Shown: positions 13,854-27,615 of the stretch, in pieces | How the letters are laid out: every line of letters begins with the position of its first letter | Position numbering within the stretch: the first letter of the stretch is position 1 | Virus record (IMG/VR): IMGVR_UViG_3300046722_000274 | Coordinates: 1-37,998 of that record | Length of the DNA: 37,998 nucleotides | From: a virus | Strand: one strand, 5' to 3' | Notes under the pieces: generated by a model | Told to the model about the DNA's origin: nothing | Databases searched by the model: none | What the model saw: only the letters and a program-made list of their open reading frames with translations | Translations under genes and position numbers: made by a program

Positions 13854-14048
13854 TCACACCACGGGCATCGGCGCGTGCTTGATCTCATGGAAGCCGCCGG
13901 CTGCGCACAGGTCCCGGACGCAGAACGGTGACGCGAAGTTGGCAGACAGCCACGTCGACGGCAGCGGCTTTCCTTCCGTCAGATCGGTGGCTGCGTACTC
14001 GGTGAGCCGAGCCTCGCGGATGTCCGCGTAGCAGTGTTGGCACCTCAT
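13854..14048 (-). CDS. Small cysteine-containing protein after WhiB
   Basis: A 64-residue protein beginning MRCQHCYADIREARLTEY and ending with FCVRDLCAAGGFHEIKH: a CxxC pair near the start and another Cys pair with a nearby His in the second half, suggestive of zinc binding. The ATG at 14048 overlaps the WhiB stop by 4 bases. Last gene of the long - strand operon. No family recognised. Confidence 0.68.
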   Translation of the reverse strand: MRCQHCYADIREARLTEYAATDLTEGKPLPSTWLSANFASPFCVRDLCAAGGFHEIKHAPMPVV

Positions 14049-18953: not shown

Positions 18954-19124
18954 CTACTTCCGGCGCCCCGGTCGGCGCACGCCCTGCGGGCCCATGTTGA
19001 TGCCGTCCTTCTTGCGAGTGGTCTTGGTGACGATCGGGTCGCAGTAGGCACACCCCGTGTGCAAGCACCGGCCCACGTCGTCGGACGGGTGGCCGTTGGG
19101 GCAGAACCTGACTTCGTGGGACAT
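18954..19124 (-). CDS. Small zinc-binding-type protein, 56 residues
   Basis: MSHEVRFCPNGHPSDDVGRC... has four cysteines and two histidines in its first 30 residues (CPNGH, CLHTGCAYC), then a basic tail (TRKKDGINMGPQGVRRPGRRK), consistent with a small zinc-binding nucleic-acid protein. Its ATG overlaps the homing endonuclease stop by one base (TGATG). Before the endonuclease arrived, this junction would have followed the exonuclease directly. Confidence 0.68.
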   Translation of the reverse strand: MSHEVRFCPNGHPSDDVGRCLHTGCAYCDPIVTKTTRKKDGINMGPQGVRRPGRRK

Positions 19125-19651
19125 CACATCACCGTTCCCGGGCAGCCGCTGCCGCCGTCCTTGGCGCTCTGCGGCTCGTTCAGCACCGCGTGCTCTCCCC
19201 ACGCTTCGGTAGCGGCGGCGTTGTACGCCTGCGCAGCATCCCACGCGGTACTGAACGAGCCAAGATGACGCTTCCGGTATCTGACTTTGATCTCCGCCAC
19301 ATACCGGCCGTCTTTGGCGCGCAGATGCACGCCCCGATAACCTGTCTTGGTCTGCTTGAGCACACGTTTGTTTCCGATGTTCGTCGACTGGTCGGTGAGA
19401 ACCAGGTTCGATCGGCAATTGTTCAAGCCGTTGCGGTCTCGGTGGTGCACCACTTGTCCAGCCCCTGCGCCCATCAGCCACCGATGCAGGTACAGGTTCT
19501 GCGTGCCGACGCGCGCCGCCACATACGTCGTATGCATTCGTGGCAACGCACGGAATCGATATTTTGTCAATAGAACAGCATCGGCGGCGTCCACTGTGGT
19601 GATTTGGCCACTCGGCAATCGATGCTCAATCACGCCACCGTACCCGGGCAT
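19124..19651 (-). CDS. HNH-AP2 homing endonuclease fused to a vestigial exonuclease tail
   Basis: A 175-residue protein: HNH domain at about 55-90 (HRWLMGAG, VVHHRDRNGLNNCRSNL), an AP2/ERF-type DNA-binding domain at about 103-158 (TGYRGVHLRAKDGRYVAE...), and a last stretch QSAKDGGSGCPGTVM (161-175) that belongs to neither. That stretch matches the C-terminus of the exonuclease encoded just upstream (QSAKDGGTGCPGTVA). The ATG at 19651 lies within the exonuclease gene's 3' end, overlapping it by 22 bases. HNH-AP2 proteins are free-standing homing endonucleases; here the gene sits in the 3' end of a conserved gene, as expected. Confidence 0.9.
   Translation of the reverse strand: MPGYGGVIEHRLPSGQITTVDAADAVLLTKYRFRALPRMHTTYVAARVGTQNLYLHRWLMGAGAGQVVHHRDRNGLNNCRSNLVLTDQSTNIGNKRVLKQTKTGYRGVHLRAKDGRYVAEIKVRYRKRHLGSFSTAWDAAQAYNAAATEAWGEHAVLNEPQSAKDGGSGCPGTVM
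19130..19174. repeat. 45-bp direct repeat, copy 1 (end of the homing endonuclease gene)
   Basis: Matches 19636-19680 at 39 of 45 positions with no gap. It encodes the vestigial tail of the homing endonuclease and probably is the ancestral 3' end of the exonuclease gene. Confidence 0.9.
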
Positions 19652-19680
19652 CCAGTCCCCCCGTCCTTGGCGCTCTGCGG
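19175..19680 (-). mobile_element. Inferred homing insertion (about 506 bp)
   Basis: The 506-bp period between the two 45-bp repeats contains the endonuclease gene plus a replacement copy of the exonuclease 3' end. Removing it would rejoin the exonuclease frame in phase to the old tail and restore its stop overlapping the next gene (TGATG at 19126-19122). The exact borders are inferred from the repeats. Confidence 0.75.
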
Positions 19681-20439
19681 CCGGTAGAAGGGACAATGAT
19701 AGCACTCGTCCGAGCTCGGCGACCGCGGCACGTCGTCGATGTGCAGGCCGCCGGCCCGCACCGCGGCGGCGTAGCCCTTGCGCCGGTCGGTCTCAGCGAA
19801 GGTGTCGGCCAGTTCCACATAGGCATCACCGTCGAACGGCATCTCCCACACGTACAGGCCGTCCAGCGAGCTGCCGGTGCGCGGGTAGGCGATGATCCCC
19901 ACCCGCTCCACCGGCAGGCCCAGCCGGATGAAACCGAGGCCATAGAGCAGCAGCTGCCGCCGGTACTTGCGCGGCGGGCGACCGGACCTCACCTTGTTCA
20001 GGCTCGACTCGCCGAGGCACTTGTGGTCCAGCACGGCGCGCTCGTGCGCGTCGTACAGGTCGCCGGTGCCGCCGTGCTCCGGATGCGGGACCACGTGGCG
20101 CTCGGCGAACCACCGCTGCTGGTCAGTGAGCTGGTTGTCCGCCTCGAACGCGTCGGCCAGCCACGCGTGCACGGCGGTGCCGACCACCGAGGGCCACGGG
20201 TCGGACACGTGGTTGGTGCGCGCCTCGGCCAGCAGCTTCCCGACCACCTGGCGGTCGCACTCCACACCGAGCTCGCTTGGGCCGAGATGGACCTGTAGCG
20301 AGCGCGGCGCCCGATTGGACGCCCGGATGACCACGTCCTTGACGGTGCGCGCCATCCGGGTAGCCCACTCGGTGTTGCCGCTGACCGCGGCCATGGGCGC
20401 GCTGCCCATAAAGTCGGCGGGGCTCGGGGCCGCGGTCAC
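19630..20439 (-). CDS. Cas4/RecB-like exonuclease with 4Fe-4S cluster ligands
   Basis: A 269-residue PD-(D/E)XK nuclease. Visible: C61 (ELGVECDRQ), G87-x3-H91, GGTGDLYD (D127/D130), AVLDHK (D138, K140), QLLLYG (Q162, Y166), then C246, C249 and C264 (CYHCP...GCPG). One N-terminal and three C-terminal cysteines are the Cas4/AddB-type iron-sulfur set. Probable role: DNA end resection for recombination. The gene's last 15 codons, including C264, lie in the duplicated segment next to the homing endonuclease. GTG start overlaps the upstream stop (GTGA). Confidence 0.9.
   Translation of the reverse strand: MTAAPSPADFMGSAPMAAVSGNTEWATRMARTVKDVVIRASNRAPRSLQVHLGPSELGVECDRQVVGKLLAEARTNHVSDPWPSVVGTAVHAWLADAFEADNQLTDQQRWFAERHVVPHPEHGGTGDLYDAHERAVLDHKCLGESSLNKVRSGRPPRKYRRQLLLYGLGFIRLGLPVERVGIIAYPRTGSSLDGLYVWEMPFDGDAYVELADTFAETDRRKGYAAAVRAGGLHIDDVPRSPSSDECYHCPFYRPQSAKDGGTGCPGTVA
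19636..19680. repeat. 45-bp direct repeat, copy 2 (end of the exonuclease gene)
   Basis: The copy now used by the exonuclease; it encodes QSAKDGGTGCPGTV including Fe-S ligand C264. Mismatches to copy 1 are concentrated in six positions. Confidence 0.9.
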
Positions 20440-20663
20440 CAGCGACGCTCATTCGCGTCCATGTGCCGGCACCCGTGCTCAGCGGTCAGCAGGCAGGGCC
20501 ACGGCGCCGTGGGGTGCACCGCGCCACACGCTCGCCGGTACATCGGCGAGACGGTATCCGTCGCCGTAGTGGTGACCGGTTGGGCTGAATCAGCGATCCG
20601 CTCCAGGGCAACCGCGATCCGGTCCAGCCGCTCGAACAGCCCGAAAATATCATCGCCGGTCAC
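20436..20663 (-). CDS. Small CCHH-module protein, 75 residues
   Basis: GTG at 20663 (GTGA overlap) gives a helical N-terminus (LFERLDRIAVALERIADSA) and one C-terminal CCHH module: C46, C57, H63, H67, then W75 (C-x10-C-x5-H-x3-H-x7-W). The same module recurs in the three genes upstream. The upstream open frame lies inside the next gene. Probable zinc-binding protein, function unknown. Confidence 0.7.
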   Translation of the reverse strand: MTGDDIFGLFERLDRIAVALERIADSAQPVTTTATDTVSPMYRRACGAVHPTAPWPCLLTAEHGCRHMDANERRW

Positions 20664-20872
20664 CAGGACCCTCCCTCTGCGTCCATATGCGTACCGCGAT
20701 GCCCCTTGACTCGAATACACGGCAAAGAGTCCGTGTCGTCGTTGACGCCCGTTCCGCATTCCATCTGAACCAGCGCCAGCTCGGCCGCTTCAGCGCGATC
20801 TCGCCACGCATCCACAGCGTCCGCGATTCGCTGAATAGCGTCGCCGACCTCGAAAACGTTATCGCTGGTCAC
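20660..20872 (-). CDS. Small CCHH-module protein, 70 residues
   Basis: A helical N-terminus (VFEVGDAIQRIADAVDAWRDRA...) and one CCHH module: C39, C52, H58, H62, then W70 (C-x12-C-x5-H-x3-H-x7-W). It is a paralogue of the next gene; both share the helix-plus-module layout. GTG start and stop both overlap neighbours by 4 bases. Confidence 0.7.
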   Translation of the reverse strand: MTSDNVFEVGDAIQRIADAVDAWRDRAEAAELALVQMECGTGVNDDTDSLPCIRVKGHRGTHMDAEGGSW

Positions 20873-22119
20873 CAGGATGCCCCTGTTCTATCCACGTGGC
20901 TGCCCGCGTGCCCCGCCTGGAGCGCGCACACGAGGTTGCGCCCGGGACCCGTCGCAGAGTAGCGGTTGAGGCAATTCTGCCCGGGACTTTCTAGCGCGTC
21001 GACACGCTTGGTCAGTTCGTCAACGCGTGAGGCCAGCGGCGTGGTTGCCGTGTACGGCAGGCTGAACGTGACGCCCTGTTCTCCCAATCGCCCGGACGGC
21101 TGCCCCATGCTCCACACTGAACCGGCAGACTTTTTCAGCTCGGCCACCCGCTGGATCAGGTTGTCCCACGTCTGGCCACTGATGTCGACACCGAGAGCGG
21201 CACCGAGCTTACGTAACCGGTCGGACGATTTCACATTCACCATGTTGAGCCGCTCGCACGTGTCGTCCAGCTCCCGCTGCGCCCTGATCCGGAACTGGCG
21301 TTCCCGATCGGTCAGCCGACCCACCTGCGCGCGCAGGTCCGCCCACGTGGCCGAGCCGGCGACAGGTGGCTCTCCGAAGTGGTGTCGGATGTCATTCACC
21401 AGGTTGGTGATCAGCTCGGCGCGGCGTTCTCGATCACTGTCGCGTTTTTGCTCCGCCCTGACTCGGAACTGGTGTTCCCGCTCAGTCAGCGACGCCTGCG
21501 CGTTGACGATGCGCACTTCTGCTTCCAGTCGCCCTACCAGTTCTTGATACTCGGGCTGATTGGTGGCGGCGGCCTTGCGCAGTTCCTCTAGCTTGTTGAT
21601 CTGGTTGGCTTGCGCCTTCACCTTGCGCTGAAGCCCGGTCAGCTGTTTTGCCACCGACTCCTCGGTCACGTCGGACCACACCACCTTCATGCCGGCGCGC
21701 GGGTGCTCGTGTATGCCGCTGTGGCCCACGGTCCGGGCACACGTCATGCCGTCGAACGGGCCGACGTTGCCGCACGGCCGCATGCCGGGGCCGCCGGTCT
21801 GCGGCGTGTGTTCGGCAGACGGCACCGCTGCCATGGCCGTCGAGTACGACCGACCGGTGCTGTTCTTGTGCTCCCCGTCGTGCCCGTCCGCCAGATGGTA
21901 CTTACCCGAATCAGAGGACTCAAGCAGGTACGGCACGCCGCACAGCTTCTCGGACGGCCACAGGATCGGGCCCTTGCCGAGCCAGTGAGAGCCGTCGCGA
22001 TCCTTGTGCTCCCCGTCGTGGCGAACGGCACGAGCGCAGGTGTGCGCAACCGTGCCGTTCGTCTCTTCCACGATTCGAATCACGCCGCACTTCTCTTCGC
22101 CGCTCACGTAGTCGGCCAT
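20869..22119 (-). CDS. Multi-module CCHH protein with central coiled coil, 416 residues
   Basis: Three N-terminal and one C-terminal copies of the module: (1) C11, C28, H34, H38; (2) C60, H80, H84, second Cys missing; (3) C116, C127, H133, H137; (4) C383, C398, H404, H408, W416. Between them (about 155-375) is a long Arg/Glu/Gln-rich helix with repeated LTEREHQFRVRAEQKRD-like segments, probably a coiled coil. A scaffold or nucleic-acid-binding role is conceivable; no catalytic motif is visible. ATG at 22119 lies 1 base after the upstream stop. Confidence 0.78.
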   Translation of the reverse strand: MADYVSGEEKCGVIRIVEETNGTVAHTCARAVRHDGEHKDRDGSHWLGKGPILWPSEKLCGVPYLLESSDSGKYHLADGHDGEHKNSTGRSYSTAMAAVPSAEHTPQTGGPGMRPCGNVGPFDGMTCARTVGHSGIHEHPRAGMKVVWSDVTEESVAKQLTGLQRKVKAQANQINKLEELRKAAATNQPEYQELVGRLEAEVRIVNAQASLTEREHQFRVRAEQKRDSDRERRAELITNLVNDIRHHFGEPPVAGSATWADLRAQVGRLTDRERQFRIRAQRELDDTCERLNMVNVKSSDRLRKLGAALGVDISGQTWDNLIQRVAELKKSAGSVWSMGQPSGRLGEQGVTFSLPYTATTPLASRVDELTKRVDALESPGQNCLNRYSATGPGRNLVCALQAGHAGSHVDRTGASW

Positions 22120-22120
22120 G

Positions 22121-22720
22121 TCACTTCTTCCGCTTCAGGGTCCACGACCCGCTCGGCTTGGTCAGGCTGGCGTACTGCTCGGCGGTCAGCATCGCGCGCA
22201 GAGCCTTGGTGTCCACCCGGTTGCTGACCACGTACTGGAGCGTGAGCGGGTGGGACAGAGTGCCGCTGACGATCGTGAAGTCGGTCCCTCCGGGCACCGC
22301 GGCCGAGGTCTCCGCCTTGATCCCGTCCGTGATCGTCTTCAGTGCCTCGGCCGCGGCGTCGGCCGCCGACTTGGCGGCGTCGTACATCGCCACCAGCGCG
22401 GCCAGTCGGGGCAACTTCTCGACGTCGCCGTTGTCCAGGCGGATGACGGCGTGCGGCGGGGTCGTCCCCTCGGTCACTGGCCATTCCGCGCTGCGATTGG
22501 CGTGCTCGTGCTGCGCCCAGATCAGCGGCGGGGCAGTCGTGCGCTCTGCCGCGTGGTTTCCGGTGTGCCCATCGGCCTGCTGGCACCTGCGTTCCGACTG
22601 CGTGATCGTGGCCAGTTCGGGTGTGTTGATGGCCGGGTACAGGCTGTGGCACCGTGCCGGGCCGGTGTTCCAGTTCGGGTCGTCCGGCTTACTGAAATCA
22701 GGTCTCCAGGCTTGGGTCAT
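22121..22720 (-). CDS. First gene of the early - strand operon, CCHH module plus helical domain
   Basis: A 199-residue protein. The N-terminal part has one CCHH module (C24, C46, H52, H56). The C-terminal part (about 112-199) has a helix (AAKSAADAAAEALKTITDGIKAE) and a beta-rich end (SGSWTLKRKK) that resembles, from memory, proteins found near Cas4-like exonucleases in actinophages. A -10 box TAGGGT lies 6 bases before the ATG, so the mRNA seems leaderless. Confidence 0.72.
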   Translation of the reverse strand: MTQAWRPDFSKPDDPNWNTGPARCHSLYPAINTPELATITQSERRCQQADGHTGNHAAERTTAPPLIWAQHEHANRSAEWPVTEGTTPPHAVIRLDNGDVEKLPRLAALVAMYDAAKSAADAAAEALKTITDGIKAETSAAVPGGTDFTIVSGTLSHPLTLQYVVSNRVDTKALRAMLTAEQYASLTKPSGSWTLKRKK

Positions 22721-22726
22721 GGGGCC

Positions 22727-22771
22727 ACCCTACGCGCCCGTTGCGACGTTTTGCAACTGGGGTGTTAGGCT
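22727..22771. promoter_or_regulatory. Divergent promoters sharing one perfect operator
   Basis: The operator GTTGCGACGTTTTGCAAC is at 22740-22757. On the - strand TTGCAA (22756-22751), 18 bases, TAGGGT (22732-22727) drives the gene at 22720. On the + strand TTGCGA (22741-22746), 19 bases, TAGGCT (22766-22771) could drive the replisome gene. Both -35 boxes lie inside the operator, so one bound protein would silence both early operons. Confidence 0.68.
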
Positions 22772-22823
22772 CGGTCCCGACCCCGTTCACGCGGTGTAGT
22801 GTCCGAAGCCCCACAACAAAAGA

Positions 22824-22849
22824 CCCCGCCGAACCGAAGTTCGACGGGG
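22824..22849. promoter_or_regulatory. Hairpin in the leader of the replisome gene
   Basis: CCCCG (22824-22828) pairs with 22845-22849, and CGAAC (22830-22834) with GTTCG (22839-22843), closing a CGAA loop. On the - strand the stem is followed by TCTTTTGTTG, the layout of a terminator against leftward transcription. On the + strand it lies in the 5' leader about 85 bases before the ATG. The rest of 22773-22935 shows no gene. Confidence 0.5.
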
Positions 22850-22935
22850 CCCTGATCGCCTGGAGAGCGACGTCCCACCGCGCCATCGCGCCGCGCACAC
22901 AACGCGTGGAACAGAGAGAACGTGGAGAACATAGC

Positions 22936-25900
22936 ATGACCTCACAGCCTGAGCAGGATGTCCGCCAGGCCCTTGACATCGCCCGCCAGTTGGCGGCGAT
23001 GGGCGTGCCGATCTTCGCCGCGCCGCCAGACCCCTCCCGCCCGATCGGCTTCTCTCTCCCCCGCGGCTGGCAGTACGTGGTGGCCGAAGCGGCGGAGAAG
23101 CACATCGCCGAGTGGCGGCCCGGGTGGGCGCTGTGCGCCGTCATGGGCCACGGCCTGGACCTGGTCGACGTCGACACCCGGTCCGGCGGCAGCTGGCCCG
23201 AGTTCGTGCCCGTCACGGCGGCGCTCGGCATCGCGGCCACGCCGTCCGGCGGCCTGCACGGGTTCGTGCCGAGCCTGGGCCTGCGCTCGCGGGACGCCAT
23301 CCTGCCCGGCGTCGACTACAAGGGCGGCACGGGCGGGGACGGCCACGGCTTCGCGTTCATCGCGCCCACGGTGAAACCGAGCAAGGTGACCGGTCAGCCA
23401 GCGTCGTATGTGTGGATCACGCCGCCGCTCGGCGAAACCGGCGATCGTCGTGAGTTTGATGCCTTGCGGCCGCTCGCGGCCCACATCGAACTGCTCCAGG
23501 CGTCTAGCCCCGCGGCCAAGCAGGCAGCGCCTGGCGACGTGTTCGCCGAGTTCTACGGCCAACAGGAAGCGCAGTCCCGCCAGACCGCGGCGCGCGCCTG
23601 CGCCAAGGCCGTGGCCGACGCGTCCGAGCCCGCGGCGCCGGGACAGGGCTACCGGCTGCGCCTGATGAAAGCGGCCATGATCCTGGGCGGCTACGTGGGC
23701 GCCGGCGCGCTCTCGCCCGAGGTGGCCGAGCGGGAGCTGTACGGCGCCGTGGCCCGAGCCTGGAGCGCCGATCCGGACGCCGATGACCTGCTCTGGGTTC
23801 GGCAGGGGTTGGCCGACGGCGCGCAACGCCCGTTCCACGTATACGACGAACGCGCCGCCGATCCGCTGACCGGCCTGCCGCCGGCCGCGGCGGCGTCGCT
23901 GGAGCACGTCCGCCGGCACGGCGCGTTGCCCGAGATGTTCGACCCGTCCGACGCCGGCAGCAACGAGCAGCAGCTTGCGGAACGGGTGCTCGGCTTCCTG
24001 CACCCCAACCTGCGCATGGACAGCGAGTCCGGCGCGTGGCTGGTGCGCGGCTCGGACCGCTGGCACGTGATCAGCCGGGACGCCGCCACGTGGGCGATCG
24101 CCGAGGTGGCGCCGAGGATGCCCGTAGGCCTGCGGCCGGTGCCCAAGGACCCCAGCGAGCGGGAGCCCGAGCACTGGCAGGCGCACCGGCACGCTGTGTT
24201 CCACTCGGCCCGCGGGTCAAGCGGCATCGCCAACAAGATCCGCGCCGTGCTGGCCACGCAGGGGCACGCCAGCCACGTGCGGCTGTCCGAGCTGGACGCG
24301 CAGCCCGAGATTCTGTGGGCCGCCGGGCAGGCGTGGGACCTGCGCACCGGCCAGCTGGCCGACATCGACCCGCTCACGCCGCACACCCACGCCGCCCGGG
24401 TGGCGCCGGTGGAGGGGCCGACGCCGCTGTGGGACGCGTTCACCGAGGCGGTGTGGCCGGACGCCGAGATCAGGGAGTGGGCGCTGACCGTGCTGTCGGT
24501 GGGCCTGACCGGGCACAGCTCGCGCGTCATGCCCGTGCTGTACGGGGAGACCGGCCGCGGCAAGTCGCAGGTGGTGATGCTGATCTCCGACCTACTCGGC
24601 ACCTACGGCGGGCCGGCGGACCAGAAGCTGATCATCGCGCCCGAGGCGCACGGTTCGGTGGTCTACAGCCTGAAGGGCCTGCGGCTGGCGTTCATCGACG
24701 AACCGGCGCCCACCCACCGGGACAAGGTGGAGCGGGTCAAGCTGCTCACCGGCGGCGGCACGCTGACCGGGAACATGATGCGCAAGGACCCGGTCACCTG
24801 GCAGCCGACGCACACCCTGGTGCTGATGCAGAACGACGCGCCTGAGCTGATCGATGACGCCTTGCGCGATCGGGCCCGGGTGGTGCTGTGCGACGGCGAC
24901 CCCGATCGGGTGTCCCGCACGCGGGCGGCAATCGGCGGCGTCGACGGGCCGGCGTGGGCGCAGGAAGCGCCCGGGGTCATGGCGGCCATGGTGGCGCGGG
25001 CCGGGCGCGTGCTCGGCAACCCCGGCGTGCTGGCCCACTCGGCGACACCGGCCAGCATCGGCGAGGCGGTTGACGCCATGGTCCGGGAGCAGGATCCGAT
25101 CCGACAGTGGATGGAAGCGCGCACCTCCCCGGCGAACCCGGGCACCAAGGCGCGCGAGCTGCACGACGACTTCGCGCAGTGGTTCAAGATCAGTCCGGTG
25201 TTCGGCCGGCGGGGCGTTCCGTCCATGATCGAGTTCGGCCGGCGGCTGACCAAGATCGGCGTGGGGACTACGGAGCGTAGGGACGGGAAGTACCGGCACC
25301 TTCAGCTGAACGGGCCGGCCAATGGTTGGGTCATCCCACCTATGCCGGCGTCATCGGCTGGTTTTGAGCCACCGGTGGCGGATGTTACGGATGACGTGGC
25401 GGATGCCGAGAGGGGATCCGCCACGTCAAAGTCCCAGGTCGACCCATATGTTGATCATGATGTTACGGATGTTACGGATAGTCCCCAGTTCCTCTCTCAA
25501 CATCACAACTATATCGATACAGTAAACAATAGCGGTTATAAGGAGCAGGCCCCTCTATCCGTAACATCCGCCACCGATGTGGCCTTGACCTCGGTAAATG
25601 AGGGTGGCGGATCCGTAACACCCCCTGGGACGGCGCTGGCCGTGCCCGAACCGAGTGAGGTAGCCCCCAAGCGGTCACGCTCGGCTACCTCGGCCGCGGT
25701 GGCGAAGCGTGAGGCCAAGGCGCTGGCCAAGCAGCAGTTGATCATCGAGCTGGCCGGGCCGATCGTGGAGCTGCCGGCGCTGGTGCAGCGGACCGCTCCG
25801 ACGCCCCGGCACGTCGGCCACGTGCACGTCGGCCCGAGGCTGGACGACCTGGTGGCCAAGGCGCGCGGCTGCCTGACCGTGGACGTGGAGAACTCGGGCT

Positions 25901-27615
25901 TCCCGATCGGGCATCCCGACCACGCGCTGTGCACCGTGCAGCTCGGCACCCCCGTGGCCGCCTTCGACCTGGACGCGAGCTGTGGGGAGTGCCGGAAGAT
26001 CGTGCGCCGGCAGGTGGCCAAGGCCCCGACCCTGCACGCGCACAACGCCGCGGCCGACCTGTCCGAGCTGGCCCACGCGGGGCTCGGCGACCTGGCTGAG
26101 ATGTGGTCCCGGATGGACGACACCGTGATCCGGGCCAAGCTGGCGGACCCGACGTCCACCGGCGGCGCCCCGGGCCTCAAGGACGCCGCGGCCGCGGTGC
26201 TCGGCGACCAGGCTATGAGTCCCGCGGCCGATGACGCGCGTGAGGCGCTGTTCAAGGCGGCCGGCTGGCTGACCAACGTGGACCCGACCGACCCGGCCGA
26301 GAAGTCGGGGTGGCTACAGGTGAACCCGCGCTGTTCCACGATGATCAGCTACGCCTGCGCCGACGTGCTGGACGGCGCGCTGCTGGCGCTGGACCTTCCC
26401 GAGCCTGAGCCCGAGGTGCACGCCCGGGAGCGCGCCGTCCAGACGATCGTGTCCCGACCGGCAGCGCTCGGCTTCCCGCTTGACCGTGCTGCGGTGCTGG
26501 AGCAGAACGAGTTGCACGAGAACGCCGTGGACACGCTGCTGCGCCGGGTGCGGGCCGAGCTCGGCATCGACAACCCGGGCAGCCCCAAGCAGGTGTCCAC
26601 CAAGCTGCTGGCTTTGGGCGCTCAGTTGGGCCAGACGAAGACGAGAGGGGTGTCCGCGGCCAAGGACGTGCTTCAGGCCATTGCGGGTGCGTGGGAGCTG
26701 CCTGACGGCTCGGAAGACGTCACCGCGCTGGAGCCGCACAACCTCGCGCAGCACGCGGCGCGGATGATCCTGGACTGGCGCAAGCACGACACCGTGCTGA
26801 AGCTGATATTGCGACCGTGGAAGATCGCCACCACCCACGGCGATGGCCGGATCCGGCCCACGGTCTACACGCTGGGCGCCGACACCGGCCGCATGAGCTG
26901 CGTCCGGCCCAACATGCAGCAGGTCAGCAAGAAAGGCGGCGTCCGGGAGTGCATCGCCGCGGACGACGGCATGTCGATCGTCTCGGCCGACTTCGCCGGG
27001 GTGGAACTGCGGGTGGCCGCGGCGCTGTCCGGTGACCGGATGCTGCGCCACGCCATCGACAACGGCCTGGACATCCACCGCATGATCGCCGCGCAGGTGT
27101 TCGGGGAGGACTACGCCGACGCCAACCGCACCCTGGCCAAGCGCATCGTGTTCGGCCGGATCTATGGCGGAGGCATCCCCACCCTGGCCAAGCAGGCCGG
27201 CGTCAGCCAGGCCATCGCCGCCGCGGCCGTGGAAGTCATGGACTCGATCACGCCGGACCTGGCGATCTGGTCCGAGCAGATTCGCTCGGGCATCCGCGCC
27301 GGTCATCGGCAGTTCCGCACCTACTCCGGGCGCGTCATCCACCTGGACCCGAAGTTGCCGCACAAGGGCCCGAACTACCTGATCCAGGGCAGCGCTCGCG
27401 AGCTGTTGGTGGACGCGCTGCTGCGCTGGGAACGCGGGCCGTGGGGCGGCGGACTGGTGATGCCGGTGCACGACGAAGTGGTGGCCATGGTGCCCGAGCA
27501 GCAGGCTGATGACGCGCTGGCCCACCTGCTGGAGTGCATGACGTTGGAGCTCAACAGCATCCCCATCGCCGCCGAGGCGGGAGGCCCGCCGGCACGCACC
27601 TGGCACAGCGGCTGA
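22936..27615 (+). CDS. Fused PrimPol primase - helicase - family A DNA polymerase
   Basis: A 1559-residue single-chain replisome. (1) AEP/PrimPol domain, about 1-200: VDVD (D78, D80), SGGLH (H108), VDYKGG (D127). (2) D5_N-like region and P4/D5 SF3-type helicase, about 340-780: Walker A GETGRGKS (537-544), Walker B FIDEP (586-590). (3) Low-complexity linker, about 810-920. (4) Degenerate DEDD exonuclease-like region, about 960-1090: VDVEN (D983, E985), HNAAADL (D1041), MDDT. (5) Pol A: motif A SADFAGVELR (D1352), motif B from R1398 with K1402, F1406 and YG at 1410-1411, motif C VHDE (1511-1514). ATG at 22936 has GGAG upstream; the open frame before it contains the promoter. No other polymerase is present. 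Confidence 0.92.
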   Translation: MTSQPEQDVRQALDIARQLAAMGVPIFAAPPDPSRPIGFSLPRGWQYVVAEAAEKHIAEWRPGWALCAVMGHGLDLVDVDTRSGGSWPEFVPVTAALGIAATPSGGLHGFVPSLGLRSRDAILPGVDYKGGTGGDGHGFAFIAPTVKPSKVTGQPASYVWITPPLGETGDRREFDALRPLAAHIELLQASSPAAKQAAPGDVFAEFYGQQEAQSRQTAARACAKAVADASEPAAPGQGYRLRLMKAAMILGGYVGAGALSPEVAERELYGAVARAWSADPDADDLLWVRQGLADGAQRPFHVYDERAADPLTGLPPAAAASLEHVRRHGALPEMFDPSDAGSNEQQLAERVLGFLHPNLRMDSESGAWLVRGSDRWHVISRDAATWAIAEVAPRMPVGLRPVPKDPSEREPEHWQAHRHAVFHSARGSSGIANKIRAVLATQGHASHVRLSELDAQPEILWAAGQAWDLRTGQLADIDPLTPHTHAARVAPVEGPTPLWDAFTEAVWPDAEIREWALTVLSVGLTGHSSRVMPVLYGETGRGKSQVVMLISDLLGTYGGPADQKLIIAPEAHGSVVYSLKGLRLAFIDEPAPTHRDKVERVKLLTGGGTLTGNMMRKDPVTWQPTHTLVLMQNDAPELIDDALRDRARVVLCDGDPDRVSRTRAAIGGVDGPAWAQEAPGVMAAMVARAGRVLGNPGVLAHSATPASIGEAVDAMVREQDPIRQWMEARTSPANPGTKARELHDDFAQWFKISPVFGRRGVPSMIEFGRRLTKIGVGTTERRDGKYRHLQLNGPANGWVIPPMPASSAGFEPPVADVTDDVADAERGSATSKSQVDPYVDHDVTDVTDSPQFLSQHHNYIDTVNNSGYKEQAPLSVTSATDVALTSVNEGGGSVTPPGTALAVPEPSEVAPKRSRSATSAAVAKREAKALAKQQLIIELAGPIVELPALVQRTAPTPRHVGHVHVGPRLDDLVAKARGCLTVDVENSGFPIGHPDHALCTVQLGTPVAAFDLDASCGECRKIVRRQVAKAPTLHAHNAAADLSELAHAGLGDLAEMWSRMDDTVIRAKLADPTSTGGAPGLKDAAAAVLGDQAMSPAADDAREALFKAAGWLTNVDPTDPAEKSGWLQVNPRCSTMISYACADVLDGALLALDLPEPEPEVHARERAVQTIVSRPAALGFPLDRAAVLEQNELHENAVDTLLRRVRAELGIDNPGSPKQVSTKLLALGAQLGQTKTRGVSAAKDVLQAIAGAWELPDGSEDVTALEPHNLAQHAARMILDWRKHDTVLKLILRPWKIATTHGDGRIRPTVYTLGADTGRMSCVRPNMQQVSKKGGVRECIAADDGMSIVSADFAGVELRVAAALSGDRMLRHAIDNGLDIHRMIAAQVFGEDYADANRTLAKRIVFGRIYGGGIPTLAKQAGVSQAIAAAAVEVMDSITPDLAIWSEQIRSGIRAGHRQFRTYSGRVIHLDPKLPHKGPNYLIQGSARELLVDALLRWERGPWGGGLVMPVHDEVVAMVPEQQADDALAHLLECMTLELNSIPIAAEAGGPPARTWHSG
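25373..25619. repeat. AT-rich iteron-like repeat cluster inside the replisome gene; origin candidate
   Basis: GTTACGGAT occurs at 25384-25392, 25462-25470 and 25471-25479, and inverted (ATCCGTAAC) at 25557-25565 and 25611-25619. Two 20-bp arms, 25373-25392 and 25557-25576, are perfect inverted copies about 164 bases apart. GACGTGGCGGAT (25393-25404) and its complement (25416-25427) form a local hairpin. Between the arms lies an unusually AT-rich stretch (about 25500-25550). It encodes only the flexible linker between helicase and polymerase. Confidence 0.7.

Follow-up and report, generated by a model that had tools for sequence, protein, structure and literature searches.

A repeated Cys/His module, predicted to bind zinc, in four genes beside a phage exonuclease

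Four consecutive genes of the virus record IMGVR_UViG_3300046722_000274 encode proteins with a repeated arrangement of cysteines and histidines. This raises the question of what the module is, where else it is found, and what it does beside an exonuclease gene. The window, meaning the whole stretch of DNA that was analysed, comprises 37,998 bases (positions 1 to 37,998 of the record). An earlier note had counted seven copies of C-x(10-21)-C-x5-H-x3-H in these genes (20436-22720). Translation of the four proteins confirmed the seven copies and all of the ligand residues quoted for them, and added the strand, which the note had not given and which is minus for all four genes. Six copies are intact and one is degenerate, and the Cys-x5-His and His-x3-His spacings are constant across all intact copies, as had been claimed. 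The Trp described as often following 8 residues past the last His is at exactly this distance in four copies and at +11 and +12 in two others; Tyr takes its position in the degenerate copy. C-x5-H-x3-H was observed 6 times in the four proteins, compared to a mean of 0.017 and a maximum of 2 in 20,000 shufflings, and chance is therefore excluded for the repeated motif. Elsewhere in the six-frame translation of the window, it occurred only twice, antisense to the 416-aa gene and at 13907.

The first gene of the block in transcription order (22121-22720) encodes a 199-aa protein with module A (C24, C46, H52, H56, W68; 22517..22651) at its N-terminus, seen in the sequence and matched by the module profile with 18.6 bits. 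The second gene (20869-22119) encodes a 416-aa protein with four modules. B1 (C11, C28, H34, H38, W46; 21982..22089) and B3 (C116, C127, H133, H137, W148; 21676..21774) were found both in the sequence and with the profile. B2 (21844..21942), read from the sequence, is the degenerate copy, with C60, Tyr74 at the second Cys, H80, H84, and Tyr92 at the Trp. B4 (C383, C398, H404, H408, W416; 20872..20973) ends the protein and matched the profile with 30.8 bits. The middle of this protein (21250..21657) is a predicted coiled coil, based on reading of the sequence and on weak Pfam matches, which were only to coiled-coil models. A match of the coiled coil to a head-tail connector family (phrog_23445, E 0.0047) was dismissed as coiled-coil noise. 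The third gene (20660-20872) encodes a 70-aa protein that begins with an amphipathic helix (residues 3-36; 20765..20866), modeled by AF2 with a pLDDT of 85-97 over residues 1-30, and ends with module C (C39, C52, H58, H62, W70; 20663..20758), which is supported by a profile match of 28.6 bits and by the AF2 model. The fourth gene (20436-20663) encodes a 75-aa protein that ends with module D (C46, C57, H63, H67, W75; 20439..20528), identified in the sequence.

Tandem duplication had been proposed as the way in which the module spread. DNA comparison bore this out for two pairs of copies. B1 and B2 have 18 identical bases in common, and the alignment of the first 70 bases of the 70-aa and 75-aa genes scores 47, compared to a maximum of 39 in 300 shuffles. 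B1/B2 and the starts of the 70-aa and 75-aa genes are thus duplicates. For the remaining copies the proposal could not be carried through, since all other module pairs showed DNA similarity only at the shuffle level; they are too diverged for an old duplication to be distinguished from import. As a whole, the module is not a local expansion but a widespread family.

All four genes are read toward a Cas4-like/PD-(D/E)XK exonuclease gene (19630..20439, minus strand; phrog_1674, E 3.9e-55), which directly follows the 75-aa gene. The same sequence, TGGTGACC, forms all three junctions from the 416-aa gene onward (416-aa to 70-aa, 70-aa to 75-aa, and 75-aa to exonuclease). At each of them, a GTG start overlaps both the last Trp codon and the TGA stop into which that codon runs. 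Because stop and start overlap in this manner, translation is probably coupled from the 416-aa gene through the exonuclease. The neighborhood of the block has two other features. The HNH/AP2 endonuclease gene (19124-19705, minus strand) ends in a 53-base copy, 85% identical, of the 3' end of the exonuclease gene (19123-19175 compared to 19629-19681, both in minus-strand genes), as if a homing endonuclease had inserted and duplicated its target end. On the plus strand, one open frame of 1624 aa (22741-27615) combines a family A DNA polymerase domain (PF00476, E 7e-45) with primase-helicase domains (D5_N/DUF5906), and is predicted from these matches to be a replication helicase-polymerase fusion.

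Relatives of the exonuclease were examined for modules in their upstream genes. In L002, two modules lie in genes directly upstream of the exonuclease. In L003, eight modules are spread over four genes directly upstream, and in one of the encoded proteins a coiled coil has modules at each end. L011 and L014 have single copies no farther than about 2 kb upstream. No module was found directly upstream of the exonuclease in L004, L005, L010, L012, and L013, among others, so the module is dispensable for the exonuclease. The 199-aa protein resembles RecE-like exonucleases (phrog_434, E 0.002) in its C-terminal half (22127..22429), which is like their C-terminal region, but it lacks the nuclease domain and has gained the N-terminal module. 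The phrog_434-like domain bears the module in the window and L002, and, read by eye, the same domain stands without it upstream of the exonuclease in L005, L008, L010, L012, L013, and L014. The module was therefore probably added to a pre-existing partner of the exonuclease. In annotated phages, module genes are found in early regions, not always near recombination genes.

The earlier note had mentioned loose GHxGxH motifs in actinophages. This was confirmed and could be extended with a DNA pattern for viral contigs, C-x4-G-H-x-G-x-H-x7-W, in which the first Cys was left unspecified. At least 100 distinct viral cores were recovered. Some pattern matches arise by chance or lie in antisense or non-coding frames (L017, L028, and L064, for example), and these counts are of distinct cores and not of proven genes. 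Since the pattern itself partly imposes the invariant Gly, second His, and Trp, independent evidence comes only from the first Cys and the unspecified positions. Among the matches listed, a Cys lies 9-23 residues upstream in 88 of 100 distinct cores, compared to 25 and 16 of the same cores at control distances upstream and downstream. Free positions also show preferences, for Leu at Cys2+2, Pro at +3, Gly after the first Cys, and Gly five residues past the last His. The upstream Cys and these preferences mark the module as a folded domain in which the metal site has four ligands and the first loop is not fixed in length. CCHC versions are also present in phage contigs, and the family consensus is C-(G)-x(8-22)-C-x-(L)-(P)-x-G-H-x-G-x-[H/C]-x4-(G)-x2-W.

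The first loop varies from 8 to 20 residues among the sampled modules and has near-maximal entropy. One possible explanation is that the module is a zinc-pinned scaffold whose hypervariable loop binds or inhibits varied host proteins, in host takeover or counter-defence. The genes are small, present in multiple copies, and quickly gained and lost, and the 416-aa protein had no relatives in the viral contigs or phage records searched, as might be expected of such proteins. However, this scaffold has no known host target, and fusions of the module to RecT, HNH, exonuclease, and MazG-like domains point to work in cis with phage enzymes. We consider a host-directed role unlikely.

Searches with the module profile had been suggested as a check on whether a known family would be found. 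None was found in Pfam or NCBIfam: neither database placed a family on the four window proteins, and Pfam placed none on 87 modules. PHROGs did respond, with weak to strong matches between module-bearing proteins and six families of unknown function (phrog_8333, 13875, 20343, 21374, 25654, and 33110), which are small, split, and without an annotated common motif or function. Parts of the module family are thus in PHROGs already, unnamed. No description of the module was found in the literature searched, where the only match to Cx5Hx3H was a polyomavirus paper. The module is a real and widespread feature of phages, very likely a zinc finger, that is new to the family databases and literature searched. 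Bacterial copies are mostly in Streptomyces; of 101 genomes taken from the family of one Streptomyces genome, at least 17 have the module. One Streptomyces genome has six chromosomal copies (L149, L173, L178, L182-L185), which are paralogues of a small module protein and have a common sequence like RASLFYGAPILSE-GACVLP-GHDGDH. Actinophages have a great many small genes of no known function, and a putative zinc module that can be recognised in many of them is a handle for annotation.

Some modules stand alone or in tandem; others cap coiled coils or share a single frame with other domains. Matches above the Pfam cut-off place it in one open frame with RecT (L061, E 8.7e-22), with an HNH nuclease (L060), and with DUF3310 in Streptomyces phage Dagobah (E 8e-6). 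Matches just below the cut-off place it with a MazG-like domain (L089, E 0.0007) and a helix-turn-helix (HTH_17; L158, E 2e-5), and one below it with a DnaQ/RNase T-like exonuclease (L162, E 0.001 to 0.003). Models of DUF5131, DUF7391, DUF6907, and methyltransferases were matched by further frames, in which the module has the CCHC or L-P form. A 359-aa viral protein (L079, 3865-4941) consists of roughly eight consecutive finger-like units, of which seven have C-x5-H-x3-H and the last is of the CCHC form. The arrangement of modules around a coiled coil, noted previously in the one window protein, recurs in other phages: modules flank or head coiled coils in the window, L003, L045, L081, Gordonia phage Sixama gp186, and Streptomyces phage OnionKnight gp53. 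Fusions to enzymes of known function help to annotate the small actinophage genes.

Since the partners are mostly nucleic-acid enzymes (RecT, HNH, exonuclease, and HTH), direct binding of DNA or RNA by the fingers is conceivable; copies arranged in tandem or joined through a coiled coil would then act as a multivalent nucleic-acid clamp beside the exonuclease. The C-x5-[C/H]-x3-H spacing, as in CCCH RNA-binding fingers, is consistent with this explanation. However, the mean net charge over the 87 modules was -0.7, the window copies range from -2 to +2, and a basic position is never invariant. A near-neutral charge without an invariant basic residue weakens a generic nucleic-acid-binding reading, and we regard it as improbable, though it and the host-directed role are the main alternatives to an adaptor.

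The adaptor is favored because of the fusions to recombination and other nucleic-acid enzymes, the position of modules at coiled-coil ends, and the coupled block with the exonuclease. The repeat unit would be a structural zinc finger of 30-45 residues, in which CCHH or CCHC ligands coordinate a single zinc ion, the small core consists of the G-H-x-G turn and terminal Trp, and the first loop is free to vary. Phages would append this finger as an exchangeable adaptor to DNA-recombination and other early proteins, or carry it on oligomerising coiled coils. In the window, the predicted fingers would be carried by the RecE-C-terminal-like protein, at either end of the coiled-coil protein, and by two small proteins made of a helix and a finger, and their most likely job would be to hold together or position the components of phage exonuclease/annealing recombination. 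Partners of the DUF5131 and methyltransferase types are not obviously recombination proteins and speak against this role, as do the module genes of annotated phages that lie away from recombination genes; we give the role slightly less than an even chance. For the whole explanation, that of a DraIII-like structural zinc finger used by phages as an adaptor to position recombination components, the chances appear evenly balanced. A more speculative proposal, which we put forward with considerable doubt, is that this undescribed CCH[H/C] finger with a hypervariable first loop may be a general plug-in interaction module of actinophage early proteins; tandem and coiled-coil copies would form multivalent hubs around recombination enzymes, and the same finger would have been recruited by restriction enzymes such as DraIII.

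Known zinc fingers were compared with the module. The classical C2H2 finger (TFIIIA-type; C-x(2-4)-C-x12-H-x(3-5)-H, beta-beta-alpha) was ruled out by its spacing; it also had no Pfam match among the 87 modules, and the model of the module has no helix. In the AF2 model of the 70-aa protein, the helix of residues 3-36 is followed by a module almost without regular secondary structure, with a pLDDT of 59-88 by block and 82-88 in the second half. A model of the module only had lower confidence (72.6). Foldseek and VIA-align searches with the 70-aa and module-only models gave no meaningful fold match. CCCH fingers (C3H1, tristetraprolin-type) have the same C-x5-[ ]-x3-H spacing as the module and little regular secondary structure. 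The CCCH finger, C-x(7-15)-C-x5-C-x3-H, was nevertheless ruled out, since every one of the six intact copies has His as its third ligand. CCCH fingers also lack the G-H-x-G turn and Trp of the module, and zf-CCCH had no Pfam match among the 87 modules.

The closest comparison is with the restriction enzyme DraIII. In a search of solved structures, it was one of two weak matches to the module profile (E 1.8), and with a core profile that included CCHC versions it was the top match, also weak (4L0K, E 0.13). Its N-terminal zinc is tetrahedrally coordinated by C4, C22, H28, and C32 (PDB 4L0K; PMC3996161), and substitution of Ala at any of the enzyme's eight zinc ligands abolished activity (PMC3996161). 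The DraIII site, C-x17-C-x5-H-x3-C, has the spacing of the window copies, C-x10 to x21-C-x5-H-x3-H. Its ligands are in register with those of the module, and CCHC versions exist in phage contigs; for these reasons the window copies are very likely to bind zinc. The zinc-binding module predicted in the earlier note is supported in the same way, its four positions being conserved across unrelated proteins with the spacing of the crystallographic DraIII site. The requirement for all zinc ligands in DraIII could also mean that the module merely stabilises the fold of the attached protein, as the DraIII N-terminal site may, and has no interaction role. The conserved non-ligand positions (Gly, Leu, Pro, and Trp) are core-like, which fits such a stabiliser, but many module proteins, such as those of 70 and 75 aa, have little beyond a helix and the module, leaving nothing else to stabilise, and we judge this explanation very unlikely. 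Returning to the adaptor finger, DraIII differs from the window copies in its fourth ligand, which is Cys in DraIII, His in the window, and Cys in CCHC members elsewhere in the family. It also has one copy, with Trp at +8 not demonstrated, whereas the window has seven copies, four with Trp at +8. Its order of zinc site and then HNH is matched by L049, where a module is followed by an HNH-like domain read by eye and without confirmation from Pfam; none of the four window proteins matched HNH. Since the scores are weak (E 0.13 and 1.8), common descent is not proven, and the resemblance could be due to convergence. Even so, DraIII and the module are alike in the signature C-x-L-P-x-G-H-x-G-x and in being one small site on a DNA enzyme, and on this sequence comparison we lean toward kinship of the two. 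With the solved zinc site of DraIII as a reference, what had been a guess at a metal site becomes a structural claim that can be tested.
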